Shown piece by piece: positions 5,709-26,164 of a stretch of DNA of 40,519 nt (within the stretch, counting starts at the first letter, position 1; the number at the start of each line of letters is the position of its first letter). A program made the translations under genes and the position numbers. The DNA comes from a virus, in IMG/VR virus record IMGVR_UViG_3300042198_000104, positions 1 through 40,519 of that record; one strand, 5' to 3'. The notes under the pieces were generated by a model. The model made no database searches. It was not told the DNA's origin and saw only the letters and a program-made list of their open reading frames with translations.

Positions 5709-5820
5709 AAAATAATGGTTAAAAAAATATAAGTAATGTGAGTGAATGAAGACATATGAGAGAGAACGTGCGGGGTCTTTGTTGGCTTAGCGTGCTTGCT
5801 ACCGAAAGTCAAGTCCACAT

Positions 5821-6093
5821 GTGCCAGAACTCAAAGTGTCACATAGACCCTCAAAGGTCCTCCCAGGTGCCCTATACTACCTAAGTAATCGAGAGACATC
5901 CCAGATGCTCACTAAGATCCAGACGGTTGAGACTGACCTTTCCCCCACAGAAAAGATTGCTCTGGACGATCAGAAAGTCTGTGAGGCATTCATGGCAGCT
6001 CGTGTTGAGGGTAACAAGAAAGTTGCCCTTGAGTATGCTAAAGTGATCATGCTTAAGGCATTCGCTGTAGGTCGCCCTTCGTGGGACTTATAA
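5821..6093 (+). CDS. Hypothetical protein with GTG start, 90 aa
   Basis: This frame begins with GTG at 5821 and gives a 90-aa soluble, mainly helical protein. The N-terminal part (VSHRPSKVLPGALYYLSNRE) is followed by helices (TSQMLTKIQTVETDLSPTEK, DDQKVCEAFMAARVEGNKKV and ALEYAKVIMLKAFAVGRP). No family is recognised. The start is uncertain: no Shine-Dalgarno site is visible and an internal ATG lies at 5905. It stands alone between the end of the long operon and the DnaA-box-like cluster that touches its stop codon. The 112 bases upstream (5709-5820) hold no gene that I can support. Confidence 0.65.
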   Translation: MPELKVSHRPSKVLPGALYYLSNRETSQMLTKIQTVETDLSPTEKIALDDQKVCEAFMAARVEGNKKVALEYAKVIMLKAFAVGRPSWDL

Positions 6094-6094
6094 G

Positions 6095-6124
6095 TTTTCC
6101 ACAACCTGTGGAAACTGTGGAAAA
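6095..6124. other. Three DnaA-box-like 9-mers, candidate origin
   Basis: TTTTCCACA at 6095-6103 exactly matches the 9-mer generally taken as the cyanobacterial DnaA box. Its reverse complement TGTGGAAAA is at 6116-6124, and a one-mismatch copy TGTGGAAAC is at 6107-6115, so three boxes lie in 30 bp. The outer boxes are also arms of an 11-bp inverted repeat (6093-6103 and 6116-6126). An AT-rich block follows directly. The arrangement is origin-like, although DnaA use by a T4-like phage would be unusual. Confidence 0.45.
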
Positions 6125-6259
6125 CTCAAAATTTACAAAATCTTAAAATCCTATTTTTTTAGTTTTTTGAGTTTTTATGAATTCTTGGTTTTTAAGTTTT
6201 TTAGATTTTTAAGTTTTTTCGTTTTTTTAGCAATTAATCCTTAAACACACATCACACAA
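6125..6259. other. AT-rich block with phased T tracts, no gene
   Basis: About 135 bp made almost only of A and T, with repeated runs of five to seven T separated by short AG or GA breaks (for example AAGTTTTTTAGATTTTTAAG). No coding frame is supported. It could serve as a DNA-unwinding element next to the DnaA-like boxes, as curved DNA, or as the upstream region of the gene at 6260, whose leader is A/C-rich and lacks a Shine-Dalgarno site. Confidence 0.5.
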
Positions 6260-6508
6260 ATGAACAAATCATTCAAAAATCTTCAGAGTTCAGCTGTAAA
6301 TTCTGTTGAAGTAGTTGATAACACAGTGAAAGTAGTGTATAATAGTAACTTAGACAAAGAATATACGTTTAACTGTAAAAATATAGAGCAATTCTTAGAA
6401 GATTTCTCTTCAGAATTGATTGATGTAGAGCTAAACAATGGTAAAGGATCTGTAGGTAAATTCCTACATCGACAGATCCGAGATGGTGTTCTTGTCGAAT
6501 CTAAATAG
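6260..6508 (+). CDS. KTSC-like small protein, 82 aa
   Basis: An 82-aa protein with the layout of small KTSC-type domains: SSAVNSVEVV, then a strand pair VKVVYNSNLDKEYTFNC, a central acidic helix, and a conserved end GSVGKFLHRQIRDG. That end corresponds to the K-[ST]-x-G-x-[FY]-x-x-x-I motif of the family. KTSC proteins are small, often phage- or plasmid-borne, and of uncertain biochemical role. Similar proteins are common in cyanophages. The leader (CACACATCACACAA) lacks a Shine-Dalgarno site. It is the first gene after the origin-like block. Confidence 0.7.
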   Translation: MNKSFKNLQSSAVNSVEVVDNTVKVVYNSNLDKEYTFNCKNIEQFLEDFSSELIDVELNNGKGSVGKFLHRQIRDGVLVESK

Positions 6509-7348: not shown

Positions 7349-7363
7349 TAAAATCTCAAAATA

Positions 7364-7408
7364 TTAGAAATCTCAATAAATTAAAAATATTGAGATTTCT
7401 AATTTTTT
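7364..7408 (+). terminator. Strong AT-rich intrinsic terminator
   Basis: TTAGAAATCTCAATA (7364-7378) pairs perfectly with TATTGAGATTTCTAA (7388-7402), a 15-bp stem with a 9-nt loop, followed at once by TTTTTT. The tail continues as three tandem AATTTTTTC-like units. It ends the transcript of the gene finishing at 7348. Confidence 0.85.
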
Positions 7409-7453
7409 CAATTTTTTCAATTTTTTAAATTTAAAGATAAATTATAGCTTATA

Positions 7454-7482
7454 TGTTATAATTAATAACTATACAAAGGAGA
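7454..7482 (+). promoter_or_regulatory. Extended -10 promoter and Shine-Dalgarno for 7488
   Basis: TGTTATAAT at 7454-7462 is a TGn-extended -10 with a perfect TATAAT hexamer and no good -35. AAAGGAGA at 7475-7482 is a canonical Shine-Dalgarno site 5 nt before the ATG. This is unlike the SD-less leaders of the surrounding cassette genes. Confidence 0.65.
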
Positions 7483-8272: not shown

Positions 8273-8470
8273 ATGTTGTATCAAATCCTCTACATTGAGT
8301 TTGATTTTGATGGTGAAGATGAGATGGATGCGTATGATAAAGACCTCATCACATCCGAAACCATTGGTCAAATCTGGGAAGCATGTGATGAAGATGATCT
8401 AATCGAAGAGATCACATGTGCCACGGGTTGGTGTATCAAATCCATTGATTATCGTCATGTGTTGGTATAG
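8273..8470 (+). CDS. Hypothetical acidic protein, 65 aa
   Basis: An acidic protein with a likely strand at the N-terminus (YQILYIEFDFDGEDEMD), a helix (SETIGQIWEACDEDDLIEEI) and a last strand (GWCIKSIDYRHVLV). This looks like a small alpha/beta sandwich. No family is recognised. It is the third gene of the mini-operon starting at 7966. Confidence 0.7.
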   Translation: MLYQILYIEFDFDGEDEMDAYDKDLITSETIGQIWEACDEDDLIEEITCATGWCIKSIDYRHVLV

Positions 8471-8474
8471 CTAA

Positions 8475-8548
8475 CTGGTCAGCCGCCCGTGTGCCAGCTG
8501 CCAGACTGTCCACCAACTGCCCCATTGCCCCCCATCTGCTGCCATACT
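8475..8548 (+). promoter_or_regulatory. Hairpin and CATACT promoter cassette upstream of 8573
   Basis: CTGGTCAGC (8475-8483) pairs with GCTGCCAG (8497-8504) with one bulged T. The CTGTCCACCA word follows. The -10 CATACT at 8543-8548 is preceded by TGC, an extended -10 form; no clear -35 is seen. A 24-nt SD-less leader runs to the ATG. Confidence 0.55.
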
Positions 8549-8572
8549 AAGGGCATCAAACGAAACGAACCA

Positions 8573-8752
8573 ATGAACCGCCTTGACGTGATCTGCCCCT
8601 CTGCCCCCTGGGAGAACACTACCACTGATGAGGACCGTGCCTGGGACCTGTGCTACTCGCTGTCTGAGGAGTATGGGTACGCTGAGGTCCGCCAGAATGG
8701 CATCGTGATTGGAGAGTACGGCAACCCCTCCACCTTCCTTGAGTGGCGGTGA
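8573..8752 (+). CDS. Hypothetical protein, 59 aa
   Basis: A 59-aa acidic protein: MNRLDVICPSAPWENTTTDE, a helix (RAWDLCYSLSEEYGYAE) and two strands (VRQNGIVIGEYGNP). It resembles small cyanophage proteins that end in a phosphate-binding-like IGEYG turn, but I cannot name a family. The frame is open upstream, but the ATG at 8573 sits at the standard 24-nt distance from the -10 and excludes cassette sequence. The stop lies in GGTGACAGTCTGA, the opening of the next cassette. Confidence 0.65.
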   Translation: MNRLDVICPSAPWENTTTDEDRAWDLCYSLSEEYGYAEVRQNGIVIGEYGNPSTFLEWR

Positions 8753-8806
8753 CAGTCTGAGAACTGTCCACCAATCCCCCCAGACTGCCTCTGGGGGTGC
8801 CATACT
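8749..8806 (+). promoter_or_regulatory. Hairpin and CATACT promoter cassette upstream of 8832
   Basis: GTGACAGTCTGA at 8749-8760 carries the previous stop. CTGTCCACCA follows. CCCCCAG (8777-8783) and CTGGGGG (8791-8797) form a 7-bp hairpin with a 7-nt loop. The extended -10 TGCCATACT ends at 8806, and a 25-nt leader made only of A and C with one T leads to the ATG. Confidence 0.65.
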
Positions 8807-8831
8807 AACAACATCAACAAACAACAAACAA

Positions 8832-9143
8832 ATGGACACGATCAGACTCGAAATGGCGATGGGTCGCAACATTCCCGACGCTGGTAAGGTTACTGATGCC
8901 ATGTTCGATCATTTCACTCGTGAGTTTATCGGACCTGTGCTTGAGTTCTGTACTATCATCGACGGTGTGGGTTACTGGAAAGGTGAGCAAGAATTGACCA
9001 AGATTCTTTATGTTGACATTCCCCCCAGTGATGTAGAAGAGATGACCGCTAAGTTTGAGCAGATTGCTAACTGCTACAAAACCGCATTCAGGCAGGAAGC
9101 TGTACTGATCTCTGCCGTCAACAGTGTGATCGAATTCGTTTAG
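8832..9143 (+). CDS. DUF3574-like protein, 103 aa
   Basis: The product resembles the small bacterial DUF3574 family from start to end. It opens with the strand LEMAMGRNIPDAGKVTDAM, where a G-x-x-x-P loop precedes the first helix. Then come FDHFTREFIGPVLEF, the strand TIIDGVGYWKG, an E-linked strand LTKILYVDIPPSD, and the characteristic helix-loop YKTAFRQEAVLI. The family function is not established. The ATG at 8832 is used because upstream extension would run through the hairpin and into the previous gene. It lies 25 nt after a CATACT box. The stop is part of a 9-bp inverted repeat. Confidence 0.7.
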   Translation: MDTIRLEMAMGRNIPDAGKVTDAMFDHFTREFIGPVLEFCTIIDGVGYWKGEQELTKILYVDIPPSDVEEMTAKFEQIANCYKTAFRQEAVLISAVNSVIEFV

Positions 9144-9151
9144 ATCACACT
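9123..9151 (+). repeat. Inverted repeat across the stop codon at 9141
   Basis: AGTGTGATC (9123-9131) and GATCACACT (9143-9151) are perfect 9-bp arms with an 11-nt loop and span the last codons and TAG of the preceding gene. No T run follows, so it may act in RNA processing or stability or as a protein site rather than as an intrinsic terminator. Confidence 0.55.
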
Positions 9152-9181
9152 CACAAACTAACAACAACTCACAAACCCACA

Positions 9182-9283
9182 ATGTCACACTTTACGATGC
9201 CTTGCCTGCCTGTCATCCGCCAACGTGTGACGCTTGCCGAACTGGTCTACATGTGGGCGCTGAACCGCCTGGGTATGCTGTAG
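9182..9283 (+). CDS. Very small hypothetical protein, 33 aa
   Basis: A 33-aa frame with ATG at 9182, preceded by the same kind of A/C-rich SD-less leader as its neighbours (CTCACAAACCCACA). It reads MSHFTMPCLPVIRQRVTLAE and then a short helix LVYMWALNRLGML. No family can be assigned at this size. Its TAG is the first three bases of the TAGACT -10 box for the next gene, a very economical overlap. It is accepted mainly because it fills a gap and shares leader style and base composition with its neighbours. Confidence 0.45.
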   Translation: MSHFTMPCLPVIRQRVTLAELVYMWALNRLGML

Positions 9284-9318
9284 ACTGATCACATCAAAAC
9301 AAAACGACCCATGACCAA
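9278..9318 (+). repeat. 41-bp exact direct repeat, copy 1 (promoter, leader, start)
   Basis: This stretch is identical to 9536-9576. It contains the -10 TAGACT (9281-9286), the leader GATCACATCAAAACAAAACG and the first codons ATGACCAA of the gene at 9311. Copies at 9780 and 10038 match most of it. It marks duplication or exchange of a regulatory cassette. Confidence 0.85.
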
Positions 9319-9499
9319 AATCGAAGCGACCGCCCTTGCCATCGCCGTGGTTCACAGCAACTGCCCCAACGCTGCCAACGGTCACGTTCGGATGCTTCAC
9401 CAGACGCCCGAGGGTGCTGAGACGCTGCGCCTGATCGTTCGGGATGACCTCTGCGGCGCCGCTGAGATCATCGCCAGCGCCTTGATGGGCAATCTCTGA
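9311..9499 (+). CDS. Hypothetical Ala-rich protein, 62 aa
   Basis: A GC-rich gene for a 62-aa helical protein (MTKIEATALAIAVVHSNCPN, then VRMLHQTPEGAETLRLIVRD, then LCGAAEIIASALMG). No family is recognised. The first three residues, MTN/K-like, derive from a 41-bp repeat shared with the gene at 9569. The base composition differs from that of the late genes and fits exchange with a GC-rich cyanobacterial gene pool. It lies 24 nt after a TAGACT box. Confidence 0.65.
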   Translation: MTKIEATALAIAVVHSNCPNAANGHVRMLHQTPEGAETLRLIVRDDLCGAAEIIASALMGNL

Positions 9500-9505
9500 A
9501 CTGTC

Positions 9506-9544
9506 CACCAGCTGCCCCTATGGGCGCTGGTGACCCTGTAGACT
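9506..9544 (+). promoter_or_regulatory. Hairpin-promoter cassette upstream of 9569
   Basis: CACCAGC-T-GCCC (9506-9517) pairs with GGGCGCTGGTG (9522-9532), an 11-bp GC-rich stem with one bulged T and a CTAT loop. The -10 TAGACT is at 9539-9544, only 6 nt after the stem. The leader to the ATG at 9569 is 24 nt and SD-less. Confidence 0.65.
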
Positions 9545-9576
9545 GATCACATCAAAACAAAACGACCCATGACCAA
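9536..9576 (+). repeat. 41-bp exact direct repeat, copy 2
   Basis: Identical to 9278-9318. It covers the end of the CTGTAGACT promoter box, the leader and the ATGACCAA start of the gene at 9569. The two copies are 258 bp apart and bracket exactly one gene and its downstream hairpin, so recombination between them would delete or swap that gene. Confidence 0.85.
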
Positions 9577-9745
9577 TTTTGCTAAGGCGATCCTGATCAT
9601 GCTGATGGGCAGCGTGACCATCGTGGCAGGTGCCCATGCGATGGATGCCGCCCTGAAGGTCCGGGACCTGATCGACCATCGTAGCGCCATGACCTGCCAA
9701 CAGATCAACGAGATCACCCCCGGCGGGTGCCAGATGAGCAAGTGA
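9569..9745 (+). CDS. Small exported protein with signal peptide, 58 aa
   Basis: A short frame starting at ATG 9569 within the 41-bp repeat. The N-terminus MTNFAKAILIMLMGSVTIVA has a Lys followed by a 15-residue apolar core. It is followed by GAHA at 21-24, which is a good signal-peptidase site (A-H-A). The mature part would be about 34 residues (MDAALKVRDLIDHRSAMTCQ and following) with two Cys (residues 43 and 54) able to form a disulphide in the periplasm. No family is recognised. A phage protein sent to the cell envelope could affect superinfection or transport, but the role is unknown. Confidence 0.65.
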   Translation: MTNFAKAILIMLMGSVTIVAGAHAMDAALKVRDLIDHRSAMTCQQINEITPGGCQMSK

Positions 9746-9770
9746 CCACTGCTGCCCCCATCGGGCGCCA

Positions 9771-9785
9771 CTGACCCTCTATACT
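9771..9785 (+). promoter_or_regulatory. CTGACCCTCTATACT promoter box upstream of 9810
   Basis: This 15-bp box is identical to that at 10029-10043 and nearly identical to 10372-10386. The -10 is TATACT at 9780-9785. The leader GATCACATCAACAAAC and following bases bring the ATG 24 nt after the -10. A short GCCC/GGGC hairpin lies just upstream. No -35 at 17 nt is evident, so the conserved CTGACC may be part of the recognition site. Confidence 0.6.
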
Positions 9786-9809
9786 GATCACATCAACAAA
9801 CAACCGACC

Positions 9810-9995
9810 ATGAAAGTCTACGCTGTCATCGCTGGAACCGACTACGAAGGGCAATCCTTTGACTCCCTGCGCCTGTTCGATTGCCGCTCCGCTGCTGAGG
9901 ATTATGAACTGGAACTGCAGAAGCAGTTGGGTGTAGACTATACCCTGCTGGAGGTGCGGGAGGTCTGCATGGAGTCCGCCCTCTGTGCCAACTGA
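9810..9995 (+). CDS. Hypothetical protein, 61 aa
   Basis: A 61-aa protein with strand-loop-helix-strand pattern: MKVYAVIAGTDYEGQSFDSL, RLFDCRSAAEDYELELQKQL, then DYTLLEVREVCMESAL. The opening (VYAVIAGxDYEGxxxDSLRLFDxRxxAxDY) looks like small cyanophage and cyanobacterial proteins in which a YxVxxGxxYEG strand starts the fold; I cannot give it a function. It lies 24 nt from a TATACT box with an SD-less leader and is transcribed as a single gene. Confidence 0.7.
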   Translation: MKVYAVIAGTDYEGQSFDSLRLFDCRSAAEDYELELQKQLGVDYTLLEVREVCMESALCAN

Positions 9996-10028
9996 GGCAC
10001 TGTCCACCAACCACCCCAAAGGGCACCG

Positions 10029-10043
10029 CTGACCCTCTATACT
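10029..10043 (+). promoter_or_regulatory. CTGACCCTCTATACT promoter box upstream of 10071
   Basis: Identical 15-bp box to 9771-9785, followed by the same GATCACATCAACAAAC leader and then CGAACCCAAACC before the ATG (27 nt after the -10). The upstream spacer contains the recurring CTGTCCACCAAC word. Confidence 0.6.
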
Positions 10044-10070
10044 GATCACATCAACAAACGAACCCAAACC

Positions 10071-10331
10071 ATGGCACTCGACTACAACGGTTGGACAAAC
10101 TACGAAACCTGGAATGTCGCTCTGTGGATTCAGAACGATGAGTTCCTCTACAACACTGCCAAGGCATGTGTAGAGTATTGTGGCGACAATGAGACCCCGT
10201 TTGATAAGTTCGTGCGCTGCATGACTGATGGTATCATCGGGCGCCACCTTGTACAGACTAAGGATGGGGTTCGCTGGGATAGCGCCAAGATCAACGACCG
10301 CCAGATCAACGAGATGATGGCAGAGCTGTGA
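10071..10331 (+). CDS. DUF7249-like NYETWNVALWI protein, 86 aa
   Basis: The N-terminal motif GWTNYETWNVALWIQNDE (residues 6-23) is the signature of a small family found in phages, plasmids and some bacteria that I recall as DUF7249; its function is unknown. The rest is helical and acidic (YNTAKACVEYCGDNETPFDK, FVRCMTDGIIGRH) and ends in DSAKINDRQINEMMAEL, close to the family's usual C-terminal helix. Length is typical. The ATG follows a TATACT promoter box by 27 nt. The stop codon lies in GCTGTGACGGTC, which opens the next cassette. Confidence 0.75.
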   Translation: MALDYNGWTNYETWNVALWIQNDEFLYNTAKACVEYCGDNETPFDKFVRCMTDGIIGRHLVQTKDGVRWDSAKINDRQINEMMAEL

Positions 10332-10386
10332 CGGTCAAAGGGGTGGCACAACTGCCCCCCGATCCTGCCGCCTGACCCTGTAGACT
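10328..10386 (+). promoter_or_regulatory. Hairpin-promoter cassette upstream of 10408
   Basis: GTGACGGTC (10328-10336) overlaps the previous stop. GGGG-T-GGCA (10340-10348) pairs with TGCCCCCC (10353-10360) with one bulged T. The promoter box CTGACCCTGTAGACT is at 10372-10386. Confidence 0.55.
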
Positions 10387-10407
10387 AACAGCATGAACAA
10401 AACCAAG

Positions 10408-10557
10408 ATGACCCACGAAGAACTGATCGCCATGGTGATGGCAGAGTACACCGCCAAGATGGCAGCAGAGGCAGAGTACCGCCAGAAGGTCCGCAGCGGT
10501 GAGATCGCTCCCCCTGAAGTCCAATCGGGCAACTGGTACATCAGCGACCGCCACTGA
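10408..10557 (+). CDS. Hypothetical Ala/Glu-rich helical protein, 49 aa
   Basis: A 49-aa protein: MTHEELIAMVMAEYTAKMAA, EAEYRQKVRSGEIAPP, then a short end with NWYISDRH. It looks like one long amphipathic helix plus a tail. An ATG at 10393 would add MNKTK, but it lies only 6 nt after the -10 and would be leaderless. The ATG at 10408 restores the usual distance (21 nt) and the usual ATGACC start, with AACAAAACC acting as leader. No family is recognised. Confidence 0.55.
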   Translation: MTHEELIAMVMAEYTAKMAAEAEYRQKVRSGEIAPPEVQSGNWYISDRH

Positions 10558-10561
10558 GCGG

Positions 10562-10576
10562 CAGACCGTCTAGACT
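10562..10576 (+). promoter_or_regulatory. CAGACCGTCTAGACT promoter box upstream of 10603
   Basis: A diverged copy of the 15-bp box, with -10 TAGACT at 10571-10576, starting only 4 nt after the preceding stop. A 26-nt leader (AACCACATACCAAACGAACC and following) leads to the ATG. There is no separate hairpin here. Confidence 0.55.
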
Positions 10577-10602
10577 AACCACATACCAAACGAACCCAAC
10601 CC

Positions 10603-10791
10603 ATGGCAATCTACTCTCAGTGCAGCGACCTCCAGACCCGCGAGACCATGTGGGTCGCTCGCAAGACAGAGACCGCTCCCCAGACCCGCTATGCTGGACA
10701 GATCAACCCCGCTGAGGGTTGGTGGTGGGCAGGATGCCACGCTGACCGCTACAACGAGGAAGCGATCGCCAAACTCCCCACCTTCGGGTGA
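10603..10791 (+). CDS. Hypothetical protein with GWWWAGCHADRY motif, 62 aa
   Basis: A 62-aa protein (MAIYSQCSDLQTRETMWVAR, KTETAPQTRYAGQINPAEG, WWWAGCHADRYNEEAIAKLP). The partial frame at the left edge of the window also ends with a GWYACAYPTDE segment, so the two may be distant relatives. No family with a known function is recognised. It has its own promoter box and an SD-less leader. Confidence 0.7.
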   Translation: MAIYSQCSDLQTRETMWVARKTETAPQTRYAGQINPAEGWWWAGCHADRYNEEAIAKLPTFG

Positions 10792-10820
10792 CCCCCCATC
10801 CTACCACACCCCCATTTCTC

Positions 10821-10826
10821 TACACT
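10821..10826 (+). promoter_or_regulatory. Possible -10 TACACT for a leaderless HicA-like mRNA
   Basis: TACACT lies only 6 nt before the ATG at 10833, in a C-rich gap of 41 bp. If used, transcription would start at or next to the A of the start codon. No -35 is visible, so this is a weak call. Confidence 0.3.
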
Positions 10827-10832
10827 CACCCC

Positions 10833-11012
10833 ATGACAACCAAACAACTCCAGAAGATCGCAAAGATCAATGGTTGGGTGTTACATAGAAACGGCAGCAA
10901 GCATTACATCTATCGCCACGAAGATGCGGGCAAACAAATCACAATCCCCTATCAAGTTCGTGACTTCGTAGGACGCAACATCGCCAAGCAGTTAGTGACA
11001 GTGGGGCAGTGA
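10833..11012 (+). CDS. hicA: HicA-like mRNA interferase, orphan toxin
   Basis: A 59-aa protein with the HicA (YcfA) fold signature of type II toxin-antitoxin systems, a double-stranded-RBD-like mRNA interferase. The N-terminal helix (TTKQLQKIAKINGWVL) leads to HRNGSKHYIYRHEDAG, where G-S-x-H places the catalytic His at residue 24. The strand QITIPYQ and the terminal helix VGRNIAKQLVT follow as in the family. Length is typical. No HicB-like antitoxin gene is next to it on either side, so it is an orphan in this window. It may be a free-standing phage effector against host mRNA or a derivative without activity. The ATG at 10833 is favoured over one at 10788, which lies in the preceding gene. 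Confidence 0.75.
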   Translation: MTTKQLQKIAKINGWVLHRNGSKHYIYRHEDAGKQITIPYQVRDFVGRNIAKQLVTVGQ

Positions 11013-11027
11013 AAATGCCCCCCCTTT
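11003..11027 (+). terminator. Weak terminator-like hairpin at the end of hicA
   Basis: GGGGCA (11003-11008) pairs with TGCCCC (11016-11021), and CCCTTT follows. The stem overlaps the stop codon. It is a plausible end point between the cassette region and the late block, but the T run is short. Confidence 0.4.
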
Positions 11028-11096
11028 GTTATAACGGGGCGGCCGAGCGGGTCCCATACAGCACCTCCCCTAACCTACAAAAGTATCCAGACGAGC

Positions 11097-11104
11097 GATA
11101 AATA
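11097..11104 (+). promoter_or_regulatory. T4-type late promoter GATAAATA
   Basis: GATAAATA followed by C, close to the T4 late -10 consensus TATAAATA read by the gp55-type late sigma factor. It lies 61 nt before the ATG at 11165 and at the start of the structural gene block, in a 150-bp gap (11013-11164) that holds no other gene. It is the likely entry point for late transcription. Confidence 0.65.
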
Positions 11105-15028: not shown

Positions 15029-18000
15029 ATGGCAGTCAAGACCAAAAGAATTTCTACTCTTATTGAGTCACAACTTCCAGAGTTCATTTCAAATGAATAT
15101 GAACTATTTGGAAAGTTTGTAGAGAAATACTACGAATCTCTAGAAGTACAAGGTGGAACACTTGACATCATCAATAATGTCCAAAAATATTTGGACATTG
15201 ATTTTTATGAAAAGAATTTATTGAAGCAAACGGATGTTTTAGCTTCTAGTATTTCTTCTTCAGACACATCAATTTATTTGATTGATGCCAGTTCTTTTCC
15301 AGAGAAAAACGGATACATTAGAATTGGCAATGAAATCATCTTCTATGCCACAAGAACAAATAATCAACTTCAGAATTGTTCCAGGGGTGTAAGTGGTAAC
15401 ACAACTTTAGGAGATCTATACGACAGTTCAGATTTCCAGAGTACAGAAGCAGCATCTCATATATCTGGAGAGATTGTTTACAATATCAGCAATCTATTTC
15501 TTTATGCGTTCGTTAGAAACTTTGAATCGCAATATTTGGGTTCTTTTCCAGAGAAGTATTTAAAAGGAGAAGTTGACAAAAGAACTCTGATCAAGAACAT
15601 TCAAAAGTTTTATAAGGCAAAGGGAACTGATAGTTCAATCAAGTTCATTTTTAACACAATCGTAGCAAAAGAAGCAGACAATAAACCATCTGTCTACAAA
15701 CCAAGAGATTTTACATACAAAGCATCTGAAGCAGACTGGGTTAGTGTTTATGCTTTAAAAGTAAAGGTTATTTCTGGAAATCCAAAGGCACTGATTGGAA
15801 AGAAAATCGTACAGTCCCCAACAAGTGAATATGGATATGCTTCTGCTACAGTAGATAATGTTTTTGCGGATGGAACATTTGATGGAGAACAGATCTGGAA
15901 CATTGTTCTTGCTCCAGAAACCGTAAATGGTGCGTTTTCAATCTCAACAAAAACTCGCCTAGAAAAAGATTTACAGGCATCAAGTGGGTCTGGAAAAAGA
16001 ATTGATGTATTTTCCACAATTGGATGGGATATATCTGGAGAGGTATTAATCAACGAAGAGAAGATCTCTTTTAGTGATAAGAATATCACTCAGTTTGTTA
16101 TTCAATCAAGAGGAACAACTCCCGTATTACACGCTGAAGGATCAACAGTTTATAAACCGGTTATTTTAGAAGGATCTGGTATATCATTATTGACCCTTGG
16201 CGTTGTTTATAACTTATCTCCACAAGACGCACATCCATATGCCTCTGTTGGCGATCAAATTCAAGTTTCACAACCAGGATTTGAAACTGCTGATCCAAAA
16301 ATAGTTCTTTCCGGAACAAATCAAACTCGTTGGGTTGTTGGAGATGGAGATCCAGTATTTACTCCAACAAATACTTCAATTTCAACAGCATTGAATGAAG
16401 TATCTACAGATGTATCTGCTATTTTTGAGGACGAGCAATATTATTACATTACGAGTTCAAGCTATCCATCTTACAAAATTTTAGATGGATCTACAGTAAC
16501 TCAAGAAGTAAAAGATCAGAAGATACTTCGTATCATAAGAAAAGAAGCAACCAAGACCACAGAGGTTTATAAAACTCCAAAACGTGACGTTGGCATCCTT
16601 TTGAATGGAGTTCCAATTTATAGTTTTCGTGATGAAGAAAGTATTCGTTTTGGTATTCTTGAAAGTATCGCAGTTGATAATCAAGGAACAGGATATGTAA
16701 ATCCTCCATTTGTTCTTCTTGACGATGTTCCAAATCAGGCAAGAGCAGTTCTATCTGGACAGGTAGTTGAAAGAATTATCGTTGATACAACAACTGTATT
16801 TCCAAGAACTCCGGAAGTTACAATTACATCTGGACGAGGAGCTGTTGTTCGTGCTGTAGTTACTGGTGGAAAAGTGACCAGTTTAATTATTGATAATCCT
16901 GGAGAGTATTATTCTTCCCCTCCGATCGTTAGAATTAGAGATAATGCCGGTAGAGGAAGATTTGCTGATTATACCGCCATTGTTAACACAGATGGTAATA
17001 TTACTGGATTTATTAAAAATGATGAAGGAAATTTTTATAATCAAAGTACAGTAATCGTAGATATTATTCCTGTTGGCAGTGGAGCATCTGGTATCCCATA
17101 TCTCAAGGAATGGAATAAAAATAGATTTACAAAACTAGCAAATACATTAGATACTGAATATGGATATGTCTTTGAAAATTATAATCAAGCATTGAAGTAT
17201 GGATATGGTCATGTCGGCAACCCTAAGGCACTCAGAGTATTACTAAATGATAATTTAAACGGAGCTGGAACAGAACCAACCACTAAAACTCACTCTCCGA
17301 TTATTGGATTTGCTTATGATGGAAATCCAATCTATGGTCCTTTTGGATATCAAGATCCACTCAATTCACAATCATCTATTGTTAGAATGACTTCAAGTTA
17401 TTCTTTGAACAACAATAGACAAAAAGGGCCATCAACATCTACTTATCCGCTGGGAACTTTTGTTAATGATTACAGATATGTACACAAGAGTGGAACACTG
17501 GATCAAAACAATGGTAGATTTTGTGTAACTCCAGATTATCCAAATGGAACATACGCTTATTTCTTGACTGTTGATAGTAATCAAGTACCACAGTTTCCAT
17601 ATTTTATTGGAGAGAATTTTTATTCTCTTCCAGTTGATAGTAACTACAATTCTGATATCAATCAAAATGATATTCCAAAAAAATCAAGAAGACTTTTTTC
17701 TCCAGGAATGCCAAGAAATGGTGAAGGAGTTATTGCTCAAATTGCCGAGGTAAGACCAGGAGTAGTTGATTCGGTTTCAATTGAAAATTCTTCTAACAAC
17801 TTCTCCGTAAATTCAAAACTTTATTTTGATAATTCTGGAACAGAAGGGCAAGATGCTGAGGTTATAGTATCATCCGTAAACGGAAAAACTGTAAATTATC
17901 TACAGAGTAAAGAGACAAAGGTTGTACAATTAACAACGATACAAAGTGCGTATTTGTTTGCGAATGACACACTAAGACAACCAGCCTCTGGAGCATATGG

Positions 18001-21000
18001 AGAAATCGTTGGAACTGTTACCAATGATAATACAATTGTGCTCAAAAATGTTTCCGGAACATTTAACACAACAGGAACATTTTCAGCAGATATTAAAACA
18101 TTCTCAATATTGATTGATCAAGATAGCAATTATACAAAGGGAGCTATACTATCTCTTACTGATGGTATTAATACCCCCATTGCTACAGGAGAAGTCTTAG
18201 AGGGAACATCGAGACAGAATGTTGTAAAAATCAAAGTATTAACTGGCACTTGGGTAGTTAATGATGATTACTTTATTCAATCAAATGATTTATTCAACAC
18301 TTCGGGATCAAGAATTATAACTCTCACTTCTTTGAGTGATAACTTAGAACCGTTTGATATCAATCAAAATGTTGCTTTAATTGAAACGGCACAAGAGCAC
18401 GGACTGGGAATTGGCGATCAAATTAATGTCAATATCTTTCCAAATGATGCCACTAAAACAAAAACATATTATTTGAGAAAAAGACTTTATCAAACAGTAA
18501 AATTTATATCTCCTGATTATACATCAAATATTAATTATACTGGTGTTGGTAGATTTGAAATTTTTAATGGTGGTGCTGATTATACACCAGGAACTTATAC
18601 AAATGTTTCGTTGACTGGAGGATCTGGATCTGGCGCAACGGCTACAATTATTGTGTCTTCTGCTGGTGTTGTTTCTTCAGTTGTTATTCAGAATGGTGGT
18701 TCTGGATATAAGAAAGCAGATTATCTAAGTGTTGATGATGAAGATCTTGTAAGATCTCTCGGTTCTCTTGGAAATGCCAGATTGGTTCTTTATATTGATC
18801 ACGTTGGATTTGCTGCCGGATCTACATCTCTGATTGTTGATAGCGCAATTGGCGTTTCTAACGGTGATTTGCTGAAGATTGGCAATGAGATAGTACAAGT
18901 ATCTTCGATTACAAATAACAGAATTACTGTAATCAGAGCGAGGGAAGGAACTCAAAATATAGATCATTATGATGGTCAAGAAGTTTCTTTATACAAACCA
19001 CGTTATAATTTTGCCAATAATTATCAAATTTCTTCTTCAAGTTTTTCTGGATTTATCAAATCATATGATCCAAATACACAAGAAGCTGTAATTGTTTTTA
19101 ACTATTCAACAGAAAAAACAAATGCTGAAGATGTAAAGATAAGCACAAATTTCTTTGATAGTAGCACTCCAGCAAAATTAGTTTCTGTTGAAACTGCCAA
19201 TGTTGTTGAATATAAATTTGAATTTTCTACCGATAATGTAAACTTTGTTTCTAATCCAAATATTGATATTCAGGAATATTACAAATATAAATTTGATACC
19301 TCACATTCTTCTTTAACTGGTACTTATTTTGATTTAAGTCCAAGCAAGAATTACAATATTGTAACTGAAGAAAAGATAACGACAACAATTTTACCAGGAA
19401 ACCCAGGATCATTTACAGATGTAAAATTTGGATTTGGTCCAAGACTATCTGCGAATTCATATTCACAAAAAATTCAAACACAATTTGCTAATTTTTACTA
19501 TTTTGATAAAAATCAAATTATAAATTCTGATGGAAAGTATTTAAAGATTATTTCTGACCCATTACAGGGAAATAAAACGATTACATATGTAACTCCAAAT
19601 AGATTTGTCTATCAATTATCTTCTATTCCTCTTTGGGATGGTTCTGGATCAATTACATACACTACAACTGGGCAATTTGCTATCGGAACAATCAACTCTT
19701 TTAGTGTTATCAATTCTGGTTTAAATTATAAGAAGTCTCCAATTATCGTTGGGTGCGATCCAACGACTTCATTTAAAGCAGAAGCAACGGTATTGTTTGA
19801 CCAAACAACAAAAACTATAACCGGAGTTAGAATTGATAACGAAGGTTCTAATTATTATAATCCAAAAGTTGTGATAACAAATGGAGATGGAATTAATGCT
19901 CAGTTTAACATTATTGTTAGACAGGGAAGAATTTTTTCAATTACTGTAGATAATCCAGGCAAAAATTATACATTTGCTCCAGAAATTGAAATTGTTGAAG
20001 GAAATATACAGGCTTATGTTAACAGCAACTCAATTGGAGTTCCTCAAAGTATTTCTATTATACAAAATGGTGGTGCTTTTCATCTTGATAAAACAGTATC
20101 ATCAGACTTTACTTCAAAAACTGTTTTTTCCCTTACTAATTTTTCTGGTGAATTTCAAAGAGGGGAACTCGTAGTTCAAAAAATTTCTGGAGTTGAAGTT
20201 GCCAGAGGTAGAGTATCGGAATGGAGACCAGGATCAAATCTACTAAAAGTAGAAAATATAACTGGTATTTTTAGAACTGGTTACACTATTTCATCAATTG
20301 ATGCCATTTCATATGGTACAATTAAATCAATATTTGTGACTGAACTATCTCCAGAAATCACAAGTTTTTATAATAATCTTGGATACTATGGATCAGATAA
20401 AGGAAAACTTGGTGTTGCCAACCAGAAACTTTTAGATAGTGATTTTTATCAAGATTATTCCTACGTCATCAAATCAAAAACTCCAATTGATCAGTGGAGA
20501 GAGTTAATTAAATCAACAACTCACCCAGCTGGATTTAAACTATTTGGTCAGGTTGATGTTGAAACAAATAGTTCAACATCAATGCCTCAGCAAGCGGCAA
20601 AGAGCGGTCATTTTTCAATCATCCAATTGTGGGATCCAGAGAAAAATGTTATTACGATTGAAAACACAAGAAGAATTCTAACACAAACAATACAGAAAGT
20701 AGAGAACCAAAGAATACGAAGAGGTTTTGGTTCAGCATCTCCATCAGAATTTAATTTCAGTGAATATCGTGCTTTTACTGTATCTCTCGCTCAAGCATTT
20801 AATGGGTATTATGATAGTGATGGAAGATTACAAGGAAGAACAGTATTTCAAGTAAGAGATGCTAATGGAGTGCCATTCAGTCCAATTAGTGCCAAGAGTT
20901 TAATTATTACTTTAGATGGAATTCTTCAAGAACCAGAAGTGGCGTATACTGTTCAGGGAGATACAATTGTATTTTCAAAACCGCCACTTGGTCCTGGAAC

Positions 21001-24000
21001 AGAAAGAACTGGCAACGATCTTAATGATCTTACTTCTTACAGAGGAGTAACTTTCTACGGCAAATATTTTGCTTTTAAAGATAATCAATATAACACAAGA
21101 TATCTAAGAAAAATTAGAAATATTTACCAAAGAAGTGGTAGATGGTTAGATGCTGCTAATCAAATTGAAAGAAATAGAACTTTTATCATTGAAGAGGTGA
21201 TTGGATATGGAAAAGCAAAATATCCAGCACTTGATTGGAGCTCTAAAATTGATGATTATCAAGAAGATATTGGATATATCTTAGATGCTTATCAACACGA
21301 TATAAGATTTGGTGGAAATGTAAAAACTATTGATTATGTCAATATTTTTAACAATAATAGTGAATATGAGTATATCACAAAGAACAAAGTAAGTTCTGTA
21401 GATATCTTTAGATATACCACAAATTTAGCAACTCTTGCGATGAGAAATTGGGACATTGTTGAAAGCAATGTTGTCTATAATTTAGGATCAACCACGATTA
21501 CAATTGGTGATACAAACCGAGTTGCTGTAGGAATGTATGTTAGTTGTGGTAGGGCATTTCCCTCAAATACAAGAATAACAGCAATTACCAGCGCAACACA
21601 AGTAACAGTATCAAATGCCGCATTAGCATCTTCGGCATCTGATCAAATCACATTCTATCTCAGTGGTATTAATAACGGTACGTTCTACGATGCTTCTAAT
21701 TTAATTCAAGCAAACAAAGCATACTTACAAGATGAAATTGGTGAATACATTTATGATAATTATACTTTACCACCAACAGATAAGCAAAAGTGTAAGAGAG
21801 ATCTCGGATATCTCATTGATGCTATCACTTATCACTTAAAGTTCGGTGGAAATAGAAAAGTTGTAGAATTTGCCAGATCTTATTACACAAATGCTGGTTA
21901 TCCATATGGAGAAGAATTAACATATATTAACAGAAGTGTTGAAGAAACAACAGCTGCGATTGATGCCTGGGAGAACTTAGGTTCATTGATGATTGCTGCT
22001 ATGAGAAATCAATTAACCGCAGGTGCTTATACATCAATCTCTCCAGTAATTGATAATACTGTTCTAACTGATCCTATTTCTCCTGTTTGTCAAGAAGTTG
22101 CTTCAAGCATCAACACGATGATTGATATCGTTAAGGAAATTATAGCAGATGGTGCTGGAAGTGTAGAAATTACAGAAGTAAATCAAAACAAAACCGGATA
22201 TTGGTCAAACACAGAAACTTACTCAAATTATAACCTCATTGATGATCCATTGCTTCTTTCACAAGAATGTAATGATGTTGCTTCATCTCTCAATTCTCTT
22301 TATCTAAATGTAAAGGATATTTTAGACAAAAAGACAGTAACAAGATCTCTTCCTGATTATGTTGATGGTGAAAATAAAGTATTTGATCTTTATTGGGAAA
22401 ACGGCGATGAAGTCATCACAGATGAAGATGAAGATCTTTTCCTAACAATTAATGCTGTTTTACAGAGACCAAAATATACAGAAGACTATCCAAGATTTGA
22501 TTCTTATTACATCAAGAGAGACGTAATACCAAACCAATTGGTATTTGATGTAGCTCCAATATGGGATCAAGATTTTAGTGCCAAGAGTATTGGAGAACCA
22601 ACTGCTGTTGAAAAAGTTGTAGGTATTGGTGTTGGTAATTACAAGAGATTGACGATTGATTACAACTTAGTTGATGGTACAAGATCCGGTCCATTCTTAA
22701 TATTGGATGTTGAAGATTTAACCGTACAAAATATAGAAGAACCTGAATTCTTGTATGTTTTCCTTGATGGTGTATTACAAAGAGAAGGTTATTCATATAC
22801 AATTTCTGGTCCAAATATTTTCTTCAATGTTCCAATTCTTGAAGAAATGAAGATTGATATGCGATATTTGTATGGAAGAGATATCGGACAAGTTCTCAAT
22901 ATTTACGATTTTAACCCTGATAGTTATTACGCAAAATCGAAAGTTTCTTTACAAGTAACAAATGGGTTGCTACAATTCATCAACTACGGATGGATGGGCG
23001 ATAAGATTGGTTCTCCAATTCACGCATATCAGATGAATGGAGATGGCACATATAAAATGATTGGTGAAATTTCAAATGTTTATGTGAATGGTGGAAGCAC
23101 ATTAGAATTTGATGTTTTTGGCAACAAATACGAAATTGATGAGGATGAAGATATAGGATTTGCTGTTAGTGGATTTTATAATCTTAATACTTCCATTTCT
23201 ATTTCAAATGCCACCGTTGTGTTTGAAAAAGATGATAACAACAGATTATTGCTTTCGGATTTAAATCAAATCTGGTCTGGCACTGTTTTAGGAAAAACTT
23301 ATAAAAAACCATTTGTCTTCTTATCAAATAATGATTTAATCAGAATTGATGGTGAAGATACATTCAGAAAAATTAAACGACTTCCAGGAATAACAACAAG
23401 TAAAGAAAATAGAAGCAATCAACAAGTTTCTAATTCTTTATATGGAACTGTTGATGTTGAGACTTACAATGGAGTTACTCGCGGCGAAGGTCTTAGTGTT
23501 GTAGCAAAAATAGAAAATGGTAAAGTTATTGATCTTGAGTGGAACCAAAGAAGCTATGATCCATTAACACAACCAACAGCATATCAATATTATATTCCTC
23601 CTGTATTAAACTTCATCTCTCTTGATGGAAATGGTGGCGGTGCCAGAGCAAACGTTTTAGTAAGCAAAGGTCAGGTCATCAGCGTTGATCTGATTGATGG
23701 TGGTTCTGGATATACAAAAGCACCAAAAGTAGTTGTATCTAGAGGATATGATTTATTAACAGAAAGAGATATTGGAGTTTCTTTGATTAATGTTGGTGTT
23801 AATTCTTTTGTAGAGCTTCAGAGTTTAACAATTGTATCTATAGTTGATGCTTTAGGAAATCAAGTTTCAGGTGTTAATTCGTTTACTTCTATATTCTTTG
23901 ATAGTCCAATAAGTTCAGATAGAGTAATTACTGCTATTGTTCAACTAGTTAGAAATACTGGAGATAATTTAAGTAGAGAACACATAGAGTTCTTGGATAC

Positions 24001-26164
24001 AGTAGAACCCGCGTTAGATGAAGTAAAAATTGTAACAGTTTCTGAAGAACCAACATTAATAATTGCCCAAATTCAGGACATTGTTTCAAATACGACAATT
24101 TCTACAAATCGTCAAATTACTACAACGTTTGAAAATCTAATTCCTAATGATGCCCTTTCTAACGTTAATTACTATGCTACTGGTGCGTATCTTGATGTTG
24201 ATCTTGGTGTATCTGATAATATTGTTTATGTTGCTGATACAAGCAAGTTTAAGACAAATGGTTATCTATTAATTGGTGACGAGATTGTTAGATACTACAG
24301 AAAACTCACCGATCGTTTCCTTAAGGTACAAAGAGGTCAATCAAATACAATTGCTAAGTCTTGGACAGCAGGAACATTCTTGCGTCAAATTCCAGATCCA
24401 GTATCTATCGTATTTGGTGGAGTATCTGTTGTTGAATCGCAATCACAAGTTGTAACTGTTAAGGGCGGAACATCAGAAATACAGGGAATTGAAGAAAGAA
24501 AAACACAATTCCAAATCATTACTCCTTCAACTTCAATAACAACGACTTCTATTTGTATCGTAGCAGAATTACAACCAGAAATTTCAATTGAATCTATATC
24601 TTCTATTTTTATTAGTGGTGGAAATAGAATTATTGAAGCAGGATCTACAAATATTGTATCTGGTTTTGATCTAAGATATTCAGCAACAGAATTGAGAGGT
24701 GAAATAAAGAAAGAGGGAATTCAATTATCAGAATTCTTAGTTTCAGAAAAACTTGTAAATATTTCTGTTTCTCCTTTTGTCTATTATAATTCAGTAGTAA
24801 CTACCACATCTACACACCAATCTGAAGTAGCAACACAAGTATTCAGTATTATCAATTCAATTGTAGATACAGAATTTAATGCGTCAATCACTATACAAAG
24901 TATTCATACTGAATTATCGCAGCTTTACATTAATCAAACAGAGGTATTGATTATTCCTCCCCCAACAGGAGCAGTTGATGGATATGAAGAAAGTTCTCTA
25001 TTAAGTGATCCGATTTTCACAAGGTCGAATGGTTTTGTAGAATTGGACGATATAAATGGACAGTATTTTGTTGGTAGAAGATCATTATCTGATATTTTAA
25101 TAAGAAATGTTTTATTTGGTAGTGGCACAAACTATATTGGAACATATGAAAAAACTAATGTTGGTCACAGAATTAGTCATTTTTCTGGAATATTCGATGA
25201 TGGATATGCGAGAGTTTCTGGAATTTCCATCCAAGAACTAGACACCTACTATCCATCTTTAACTTTACAAGACTTTGTAGATAGAGCAAATTCCAGCTAC
25301 ACATTATCAGGAGATTACTTCAATCTTCTTCCACCATCTATTCAAAATCCAGTAGCAGTTCCATTCTCAACTGGATCTATAGCATCTACTATTGAGGTCC
25401 CAACAACCACATTCTTCCCAACGAGTGGATACTTATATACAGAAAATGGTGGTTTAATTCAATATACTGGAAAAACATCTACATCATTTACTGGATGTAC
25501 TTTCGTAAGAGGATCAACAGCATTATTAGGAAATTCTGTGATCTTTGATGGAACCGGAGATTACTTAAATATCGCTTCAAATAGTGCTTTCAATTATGGA
25601 ACTGGAGACTTTACTATAGAGTTCTATTGGAGACCAAATGCTCTCAGTGGAACACAAGTTTTGATAGATCAAAGAACCGCATCAACAGATGTTTCAATTT
25701 ATGTTGAAATGAATTCTACCGGAAATATCAGAGTGTTTGTTAATGGGTCTTACAGAATTACATCTTCAAATACGTGTAGCACATCTCAATTCAATCATGT
25801 TGCTATATACAGATCTTCTGGAACTACAAGAGTTGCTATTAATGGAACTGTAACTACAGCATCAACATACACCGATGCCAACAATTATGCTTCTAAACCA
25901 TTTAGAATTGGAGCTTCTTGGACTGCTGGTTCCCCTATTTCCGGCAGAATTAACAGTTTGCGTGTTGTAAAAGGAACTTCTTTATACGCTGGTACAAACT
26001 TTACTGTTCCATCTCAAATAACAAATATTTCTGGAACATCTTTACTAACATGTCAAGGAAATTCAATAAGAGATAGAAGTTCAAATAACCTATCAATATC
26101 TGTTGTTGGAGATGCTGCTGTTTCAAATACTGGAACGACAATCATTCCATTCCAAATAACATAA
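15029..26164 (+). CDS. Giant baseplate/fibre protein in gp7 position (YHYH and LamG domains)
   Basis: A single 11.1-kb frame codes for 3711 aa. The N-terminal 220 residues (LIESQLPEFISNEYELFGKF and on) match the start of large cyanophage baseplate proteins found between gp6 and gp8. By position it replaces T4 gp7 (1032 aa), but sequence homology to gp7 is not visible. Modules seen in order: repeated GYxxIGxExIxY units (residue about 90 first), GxGYxxPP beta repeats, a YHYH domain (about 753-868, containing GFAYDGNPIYGP and NGRFCVTPDYPNGTYAYF), a duplicated helical domain (about 2041-2108 and 2221-2289), further beta repeats, and a C-terminal LamG/concanavalin-like lectin domain (about 3500-3658). 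It is probably a virion surface protein joining wedge to receptor-binding modules. Its length relative to T4 gp7 is the main oddity. Confidence 0.85.
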   Translation: MAVKTKRISTLIESQLPEFISNEYELFGKFVEKYYESLEVQGGTLDIINNVQKYLDIDFYEKNLLKQTDVLASSISSSDTSIYLIDASSFPEKNGYIRIGNEIIFYATRTNNQLQNCSRGVSGNTTLGDLYDSSDFQSTEAASHISGEIVYNISNLFLYAFVRNFESQYLGSFPEKYLKGEVDKRTLIKNIQKFYKAKGTDSSIKFIFNTIVAKEADNKPSVYKPRDFTYKASEADWVSVYALKVKVISGNPKALIGKKIVQSPTSEYGYASATVDNVFADGTFDGEQIWNIVLAPETVNGAFSISTKTRLEKDLQASSGSGKRIDVFSTIGWDISGEVLINEEKISFSDKNITQFVIQSRGTTPVLHAEGSTVYKPVILEGSGISLLTLGVVYNLSPQDAHPYASVGDQIQVSQPGFETADPKIVLSGTNQTRWVVGDGDPVFTPTNTSISTALNEVSTDVSAIFEDEQYYYITSSSYPSYKILDGSTVTQEVKDQKILRIIRKEATKTTEVYKTPKRDVGILLNGVPIYSFRDEESIRFGILESIAVDNQGTGYVNPPFVLLDDVPNQARAVLSGQVVERIIVDTTTVFPRTPEVTITSGRGAVVRAVVTGGKVTSLIIDNPGEYYSSPPIVRIRDNAGRGRFADYTAIVNTDGNITGFIKNDEGNFYNQSTVIVDIIPVGSGASGIPYLKEWNKNRFTKLANTLDTEYGYVFENYNQALKYGYGHVGNPKALRVLLNDNLNGAGTEPTTKTHSPIIGFAYDGNPIYGPFGYQDPLNSQSSIVRMTSSYSLNNNRQKGPSTSTYPLGTFVNDYRYVHKSGTLDQNNGRFCVTPDYPNGTYAYFLTVDSNQVPQFPYFIGENFYSLPVDSNYNSDINQNDIPKKSRRLFSPGMPRNGEGVIAQIAEVRPGVVDSVSIENSSNNFSVNSKLYFDNSGTEGQDAEVIVSSVNGKTVNYLQSKETKVVQLTTIQSAYLFANDTLRQPASGAYGEIVGTVTNDNTIVLKNVSGTFNTTGTFSADIKTFSILIDQDSNYTKGAILSLTDGINTPIATGEVLEGTSRQNVVKIKVLTGTWVVNDDYFIQSNDLFNTSGSRIITLTSLSDNLEPFDINQNVALIETAQEHGLGIGDQINVNIFPNDATKTKTYYLRKRLYQTVKFISPDYTSNINYTGVGRFEIFNGGADYTPGTYTNVSLTGGSGSGATATIIVSSAGVVSSVVIQNGGSGYKKADYLSVDDEDLVRSLGSLGNARLVLYIDHVGFAAGSTSLIVDSAIGVSNGDLLKIGNEIVQVSSITNNRITVIRAREGTQNIDHYDGQEVSLYKPRYNFANNYQISSSSFSGFIKSYDPNTQEAVIVFNYSTEKTNAEDVKISTNFFDSSTPAKLVSVETANVVEYKFEFSTDNVNFVSNPNIDIQEYYKYKFDTSHSSLTGTYFDLSPSKNYNIVTEEKITTTILPGNPGSFTDVKFGFGPRLSANSYSQKIQTQFANFYYFDKNQIINSDGKYLKIISDPLQGNKTITYVTPNRFVYQLSSIPLWDGSGSITYTTTGQFAIGTINSFSVINSGLNYKKSPIIVGCDPTTSFKAEATVLFDQTTKTITGVRIDNEGSNYYNPKVVITNGDGINAQFNIIVRQGRIFSITVDNPGKNYTFAPEIEIVEGNIQAYVNSNSIGVPQSISIIQNGGAFHLDKTVSSDFTSKTVFSLTNFSGEFQRGELVVQKISGVEVARGRVSEWRPGSNLLKVENITGIFRTGYTISSIDAISYGTIKSIFVTELSPEITSFYNNLGYYGSDKGKLGVANQKLLDSDFYQDYSYVIKSKTPIDQWRELIKSTTHPAGFKLFGQVDVETNSSTSMPQQAAKSGHFSIIQLWDPEKNVITIENTRRILTQTIQKVENQRIRRGFGSASPSEFNFSEYRAFTVSLAQAFNGYYDSDGRLQGRTVFQVRDANGVPFSPISAKSLIITLDGILQEPEVAYTVQGDTIVFSKPPLGPGTERTGNDLNDLTSYRGVTFYGKYFAFKDNQYNTRYLRKIRNIYQRSGRWLDAANQIERNRTFIIEEVIGYGKAKYPALDWSSKIDDYQEDIGYILDAYQHDIRFGGNVKTIDYVNIFNNNSEYEYITKNKVSSVDIFRYTTNLATLAMRNWDIVESNVVYNLGSTTITIGDTNRVAVGMYVSCGRAFPSNTRITAITSATQVTVSNAALASSASDQITFYLSGINNGTFYDASNLIQANKAYLQDEIGEYIYDNYTLPPTDKQKCKRDLGYLIDAITYHLKFGGNRKVVEFARSYYTNAGYPYGEELTYINRSVEETTAAIDAWENLGSLMIAAMRNQLTAGAYTSISPVIDNTVLTDPISPVCQEVASSINTMIDIVKEIIADGAGSVEITEVNQNKTGYWSNTETYSNYNLIDDPLLLSQECNDVASSLNSLYLNVKDILDKKTVTRSLPDYVDGENKVFDLYWENGDEVITDEDEDLFLTINAVLQRPKYTEDYPRFDSYYIKRDVIPNQLVFDVAPIWDQDFSAKSIGEPTAVEKVVGIGVGNYKRLTIDYNLVDGTRSGPFLILDVEDLTVQNIEEPEFLYVFLDGVLQREGYSYTISGPNIFFNVPILEEMKIDMRYLYGRDIGQVLNIYDFNPDSYYAKSKVSLQVTNGLLQFINYGWMGDKIGSPIHAYQMNGDGTYKMIGEISNVYVNGGSTLEFDVFGNKYEIDEDEDIGFAVSGFYNLNTSISISNATVVFEKDDNNRLLLSDLNQIWSGTVLGKTYKKPFVFLSNNDLIRIDGEDTFRKIKRLPGITTSKENRSNQQVSNSLYGTVDVETYNGVTRGEGLSVVAKIENGKVIDLEWNQRSYDPLTQPTAYQYYIPPVLNFISLDGNGGGARANVLVSKGQVISVDLIDGGSGYTKAPKVVVSRGYDLLTERDIGVSLINVGVNSFVELQSLTIVSIVDALGNQVSGVNSFTSIFFDSPISSDRVITAIVQLVRNTGDNLSREHIEFLDTVEPALDEVKIVTVSEEPTLIIAQIQDIVSNTTISTNRQITTTFENLIPNDALSNVNYYATGAYLDVDLGVSDNIVYVADTSKFKTNGYLLIGDEIVRYYRKLTDRFLKVQRGQSNTIAKSWTAGTFLRQIPDPVSIVFGGVSVVESQSQVVTVKGGTSEIQGIEERKTQFQIITPSTSITTTSICIVAELQPEISIESISSIFISGGNRIIEAGSTNIVSGFDLRYSATELRGEIKKEGIQLSEFLVSEKLVNISVSPFVYYNSVVTTTSTHQSEVATQVFSIINSIVDTEFNASITIQSIHTELSQLYINQTEVLIIPPPTGAVDGYEESSLLSDPIFTRSNGFVELDDINGQYFVGRRSLSDILIRNVLFGSGTNYIGTYEKTNVGHRISHFSGIFDDGYARVSGISIQELDTYYPSLTLQDFVDRANSSYTLSGDYFNLLPPSIQNPVAVPFSTGSIASTIEVPTTTFFPTSGYLYTENGGLIQYTGKTSTSFTGCTFVRGSTALLGNSVIFDGTGDYLNIASNSAFNYGTGDFTIEFYWRPNALSGTQVLIDQRTASTDVSIYVEMNSTGNIRVFVNGSYRITSSNTCSTSQFNHVAIYRSSGTTRVAINGTVTTASTYTDANNYASKPFRIGASWTAGSPISGRINSLRVVKGTSLYAGTNFTVPSQITNISGTSLLTCQGNSIRDRSSNNLSISVVGDAAVSNTGTTIIPFQIT

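Follow-up and report, generated by a model that had tools for sequence, protein, structure and literature searches.

A conserved origin-like element with host-type DnaA boxes, probably bound by host DnaA, in T4-like cyanophages

The element and its surroundings

The window analysed here is a 40,519-nucleotide stretch of viral DNA (IMG/VR record IMGVR_UViG_3300042198_000104, positions 1 to 40,519). That it comes from a T4-like cyanophage, as a preliminary description of the DNA had proposed, is borne out by gp6-like and gp8-like baseplate homologues and by protein families of the Kyanoviridae. Very long ORFs lie near the baseplate genes (3711 aa, 15029-26164, and 2698 aa, 28105-36201). A segment at 8300-11100 has about 48-56% G+C against 35-40% around it and carries short ORFs on both strands, and patches of it match 179 cyanophage records.

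The element considered here starts near position 5715 (Table 1). Its cluster of DnaA boxes is one among several features: a conserved noncoding block with a -10-like hexamer is followed by a small ORF, the boxes begin 2 bp past the stop codon of that ORF, and an A/T-rich block fills the space from the boxes to an 82-aa gene, for which it would also serve as 5' leader should the upstream promoter be real.

Table 1. Positions of the features that make up the element and its flanks in the window
Feature	Position	Strand	Basis
Conserved noncoding block (profile positions 1-171)	5715-5887	+	nhmmer profile, E about 1e-42, final search
Most conserved core of the block, TGTTGGCTTAGCGTGC..CGAAAGTCAAG	5780-5813	+	Invariant columns of a 16-sequence alignment
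Imperfect inverted repeat TGTGCCA..TGTCACA inside the block	5820-5843	+	Read from sequence; conserved alignment columns
Sigma-70-type -10-like hexamer TATACT	5873-5878	+	Sequence; TATAAT in many relatives
Small putative ORF, 62 aa, between block and boxes, no known family	5905-6093	+	ORF list
DnaA box 1, TTTTCCACA, exact	6095-6103	+	Sequence match
DnaA box 2, GTTTCCACA, one mismatch	6107-6115	-	Sequence match
DnaA box 3, TTTTCCACA, exact	6116-6124	-	Sequence match
A/T-rich T-tract block, candidate DNA-unwinding element	6125-6258	none	Low stability; kept in boxed and unboxed relatives
82-aa gene, phrog_4357	6260-6508	+	Syntenic anchor for fetching relatives

The preliminary description had reported three boxes in mixed orientation, two of them exact, followed by an A/T-rich block of T tracts, and all of this was confirmed. 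Its identification of the 9-mer also holds, TTTTCCACA being the DnaA box of most cyanobacteria (PMC4674748). Boxes 1 and 2 are perfect inverted repeats of each other over 8 bp, separated by 3 nt. Only one other exact TTTTCCACA occurs in the window, at 16010 within a long ORF, and the 9-mer at one mismatch has 15 matches where 21.6 are expected, so that it is not generally enriched and what is exceptional is its clustering at 6095-6124. Both copies of the extended form GTTTTCCAC in the window (6094 and 6117) fall in this cluster. When a cluster was defined as three boxes, two of them exact, within about 40 bp, the window had one and 100 third-order Markov simulations of it had none; nor did any arise in 20 such simulations for each of four complete cyanophage genomes. 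A host-type box cluster beyond chance, as expected of a DnaA-dependent origin, is therefore present.

An adjoining, easily unwound A/T-rich stretch, likewise expected of such an origin, is also found, as judged by sequence-based stability: the A/T-rich block ranks third in the window among 120-bp stretches ordered from the least stable. The matching blocks rank second in the genomes of S-WAM2 (186 kb) and G001 (186 kb) and ninth in S-PM2 (196 kb), and the counterpart in a near-identical contig (L089) has 21% G+C. The least stable 120 bp of the window is A/T-rich noncoding DNA at 7358-7477, after a Kyano_Gp96 gene, and the least stable 120 bp of G001 lie about 1 kb downstream of its own element.

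The profile of the conserved block matches S-PM2, S-RIM32, Syn1, S-CAM1, S-RSM4 and S-WAM2, among others, and S-PM2, S-WAM2 and G001 each have a single full-length copy. A scan with the block-core motif gave many chance matches; 29 are true blocks by the profile. At the equivalent place Syn9 has a textbook TTGACA-N17-TATAAT promoter, and promoter-like sequence lies between the two sites at which boxes occur in relatives (see below). In the window a promoter scan made no call at the TATACT site, and although the order of this hexamer and the downstream A/T-rich block is that of a T4-type R-loop origin, the small ORF lies between them. Further copies of the 3' half of the block, which has the -10-like sequence (model positions about 102-171), precede other small genes (in L009, L010, L016, L022, L093, L109 and L112, and at 52993, 47201 and 127489 in Syn9), which suggests a shared early-promoter module.

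Box sites in related phages

Searched by nucleotide sequence, the region turned up in Synechococcus myoviruses; with the 82-aa gene as query, a protein search retrieved 32 viral contigs. After merging of near-identical loci, the gene-fetched contigs and the isolates gave 30 distinct loci. In 10 of these, boxes lie within 200 bp upstream of the 82-aa gene, directly against the A/T-rich block. Over the 30 loci, 23 exact boxes fall in the 6 kb beside this block and 9 in the remaining 165 kb, a density about 70 times higher. Seven of those nine belong to a second box site, just upstream of the conserved noncoding block and at a near-fixed distance from it, with box starts at -49, -36 and -24 in S-PM2, L057, L063, L093 and L109. 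Both sites are occupied in L010, L023, L035, L049, L050, L065 and L093.

Upstream-site boxes are found in S-PM2, S-RIM32, Syn1, S-CAM1, Sf-FP1, S-RIM8, S-M1, QB2, S-H25, DSL-LC03 and Syn9, and the isolates with boxes span many genera. S-SZBM1 has boxes with a marginal block match (E 0.0033). Annotation of the isolates either passes over the boxes or places small hypothetical features across them. Each element carries from 2 to about 8 boxes (seven in DSL-LC03), and the element accounts for all five boxes of the S-RIM32 genome and three of the eight of S-PM2. The box cluster is retained in the deletion mutant S-PM2d, which has lost 9.5 kb nearby. The addresses of the element in cultured phages are 19.23-19.42 kb in S-PM2, 52.56-52.70 kb in Syn9 and 58.71-58.87 kb in Syn1. 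The S-PM2 record (AJ630128, 15314-23432) annotates nine tRNA features here, one of them a pseudogene, several of which overlap coding sequences and DnaA boxes. ARAGORN finds zero tRNAs in this segment, and the annotation looks misplaced; the idea of a tRNA remnant, which came from it, was dropped since the window gave none either.

The boxes come and go around a block that is widely conserved. They occur in about a third of the gene-fetched loci and in many isolates, and many other relatives keep the block and the A/T-rich stretch with no boxes, so that the site itself is conserved only in a subset of relatives, where the boxes concentrate at one place. Genome-wide counts gave no box cluster in S-RSM4, S-WAM2, S-H9-1, S-B43, Sf-CH1b, P-SSM2 or P-SSM4; the first five have at most one box in a whole genome of ~190 kb, and the last two are from Prochlorococcus, which is reported to have no DnaA box near dnaA (PMC4674748). 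Box-free ACG-2014h has the same recorded host strain, WH7803, as boxed S-PM2 and S-RIM8. These absences, the last on a shared host, indicate that the boxes are optional. On a tree of the 82-aa protein, whose support is low because the protein is short, the box state changes at least twice, and by parsimony four to five times, which indicates repeated gain or loss.

What varies between boxed relatives is the number, orientation and spacing of the boxes, while the 9-mer persists. The leading G of GTTTTCCAC is present in 26 of 30 boxes sampled from relatives. Syn1, S-CAM1 and Sf-FP1 have one-strand arrays with 3-bp gaps; opposed boxes are separated by 3, 4, 5, 14 or 16 bp, those of S-RIM8 converging at 14 bp; L016 has four boxes and L015 two pairs. 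Such variation is expected of a protein that reads single non-palindromic 9-mers, whereas a hairpin or a fixed dimer operator would keep its dyad. It therefore argues against the reading in which DnaA plays no part and the paired boxes are an RNA hairpin (TTTCCACA-ACC-TGTGGAAA) or form a dyad operator that a phage regulator would bind. The perfect inverted repeat of the first two boxes is what that reading has in its favour, but the one-strand arrangements, which have no inverted repeat, largely refute it, the gap between opposed boxes ranges from 3 to 16 bp, and compensatory changes of the arms were not seen in the gene-fetched loci; we consider it quite improbable. An intrinsic terminator, with a GC stem, a T run and co-varying arms, was rejected because of the one-strand arrays and because there is no terminator-like match at the site. 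DNA folding of the region was no better than that of shuffles (z -0.77), and a search of the region for RNA families found nothing.

The 12 picocyanobacterial genomes, recognised by their CsoS2, show no genome-wide enrichment of exact TTTTCCACA. Seven were examined at dnaN: GTTTTCCAC lies within 500 bp upstream of this gene in six (8 copies, 0.08 expected), and exact TTTTCCACA occurs in the dnaN region of only one. Since the exact 9-mer is unenriched in these hosts and rarely complete at dnaN, we infer the preference of their DnaA for it. Away from dnaN, the same genomes (L388-L399) contain a conserved TTTTCCACA pair about 270-290 bp apart, beside a DUF2811 gene in G306, and a second pair 44-45 bp apart adjoining a DUF1818 gene, both of which, from their sequence, are possible DnaA-binding loci of the host. 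In Karimacvirus-type Streptomyces phages such as Quaran19 (L415), a pair of E. coli-type boxes, TTATCCACA..TGTGGATAA, lies between genes where nothing is annotated. The cyanophage element does not look like a copied host origin, as the exact two-way trio occurs in one of 292 genomes sampled from the cyanobacterial phylum, only 35 of which are CsoS2-bearing picocyanobacteria. Overall, we are highly confident that the locus is a genuine, conserved host-type DnaA-box element.

A candidate early origin and competing readings

The identity of the boxes, their clustering, their conserved position with variable arrangement and the melting propensity of the DNA beside them can all be read from the sequence, and from these we infer binding of DnaA, opening of the DNA and origin activity. 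Our proposal is that a conserved regulatory element of the Kyanoviridae is bound by the host initiator DnaA, through boxes at one or both of two places, upstream of the promoter block and against the A/T-rich stretch downstream. Host DnaA would assemble on the boxes and help to open the adjoining A/T-rich DNA, aided by transcription from the early promoter that lies between the two places; the opened DNA could then be the entry point of the phage replisome for the first rounds of replication, after which recombination-dependent replication would take over. The element is thus probably a conserved, host-DnaA-binding, origin-like element that serves as an optional early origin, by which T4-like cyanophages may borrow the replication starter of their host. 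Whether it does act as an origin we put at about even chances. The broader proposition, that T4-like cyanophages, as lytic myoviruses, widely use a single modular origin driven by host DnaA, at which boxes come, go and change their arrangement about a conserved promoter core, and that they differ in this from T4, is a tentative one that we hold with some doubt.

The candidate origin of the preliminary description therefore keeps its box cluster and its easily melting neighbour. The GC-skew switch looked for at the site was not found: none of the complete genomes of S-PM2, S-WAM2, G001, S-RIM32 and Syn9 shows there the turn that would be expected of a DnaA-dependent origin. This is a weak test where genes run in one direction and replication depends on recombination, as in these phages. 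The boxless relatives that retain the block and the A/T-rich stretch, and the annotation of gp59, the T4-type helicase loader, in Syn9 and P-SSM4, also count against an origin in every member, and mean that the family cannot depend on DnaA. In favour of an origin are a single theta origin earlier predicted for Syn9 (PMC2984593) and the raised density of virion reads near the S-PM2 cluster described below, which its authors read otherwise. A literature search, largely of open-access papers, brought up no mention of DnaA boxes in T4-like cyanophages.

The main rival is DnaA-coupled control of early transcription, in which bound host DnaA represses or activates the early promoter within the block, no replication starts here, and early phage genes are coupled to the replication state of the host. 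The boxes do flank a -10-like site that is kept in most relatives and is part of a full promoter in Syn9, copies of the promoter half precede other small genes, and the A/T-rich block is retained where boxes are missing, as expected of a leader. However, the boxes lie both upstream and downstream of the promoter at about 30 to more than 200 bp, unlike an operator or activator site of fixed geometry. This placement favours an origin over a simple operator but does not decide between them, and we regard such a switch as possible but unlikely.

Titration, which the preliminary description had offered beside recruitment, would have the boxes sequester DnaA during the multiplication of phage genomes, with initiation in the host silenced as a result. 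The boxes are indeed clustered, up to the seven of DSL-LC03, but with only 2-8 per element and no box excess elsewhere in the genome it is weakly supported, and a sponge need not adjoin A/T-rich DNA and a promoter; we consider it very improbable. We know of no two-step injection or strong pac sites in T4-like phages, and a DNA-end or packaging element, be it a preferred start for terminase or a site at which DNA entry pauses, as at the injection stop signal of T5, appears improbable, although several observations point that way. Just downstream of the ORFanage of S-PM2 (5.8-15.3 kb), near the region, the density of virion reads rises 2-3 fold, which the authors of that work attributed to terminal redundancy (PMC4503421); the S-PM2 box cluster is at 19.2 kb, and the ORFanage ends at 15.3 kb. 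For S-H9-1, S-M1 and S-SZBM1, an end of the record falls no more than about 1 kb from the element. A rough estimate made by hand has 11 of the 32 metagenomic contigs ending 1.3 kb or less from the 82-aa gene, where about 4 would be expected. The T5 signal, too, has DnaA boxes according to its description, along with repeats and palindromes (PMC13250531). Contig ends, however, also arise at junctions of conserved DNA with variable flanks. Ends within about 1 kb of the element are unusually frequent (records MW117966, OP917831 and OL473597; contigs L009, L014, L024 and L030), and some metagenomic contigs start at the block itself; these may be true ends of the DNA, may stem from coverage, or may be breaks where conserved and variable DNA adjoin.

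The element offers a precise, conserved address in cultured model phages at which T4-like cyanophages, with one predicted theta origin (that of Syn9) until now, may start to copy their DNA. It also offers a natural comparison in its boxed and box-free relatives side by side, and a way to test how infection of some of the ocean's most abundant phototrophs may be tied to the replication control of the host.

Comparison with known systems

Two-step DNA entry is not known for T4-like phages, and in this the cyanophages would differ from T5. By description, the element is nevertheless like the T5 injection stop signal in being a phage segment with repeats, palindromes and DnaA boxes (PMC13250531). 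With the oriC of cyanobacteria such as Synechococcus elongatus, Anabaena and Cyanothece it shares clustered TTTTCCACA boxes in intergenic DNA (PMC4674748). Unlike those origins, it has no dnaN or dnaA neighbour and belongs to a lytic phage with its own replisome. From general knowledge, it can be likened to P1 oriR, pSC101 and F, foreign replicons with host DnaA boxes beside A/T-rich DNA; these have their own Rep protein and iterons, neither of which was seen at the cyanophage element. T4 origins, to our knowledge, use no DnaA boxes, whereas in the cyanophages boxes flank the candidate promoter, and transcription through the A/T-rich block would yield a U-rich RNA, unlike at oriF and oriG. What the element would share with these T4 origins, at which an R-loop forms at a promoter with an unwinding element, is that, again in a phage of the T4 type, a promoter-like sequence lies near DNA that melts easily.
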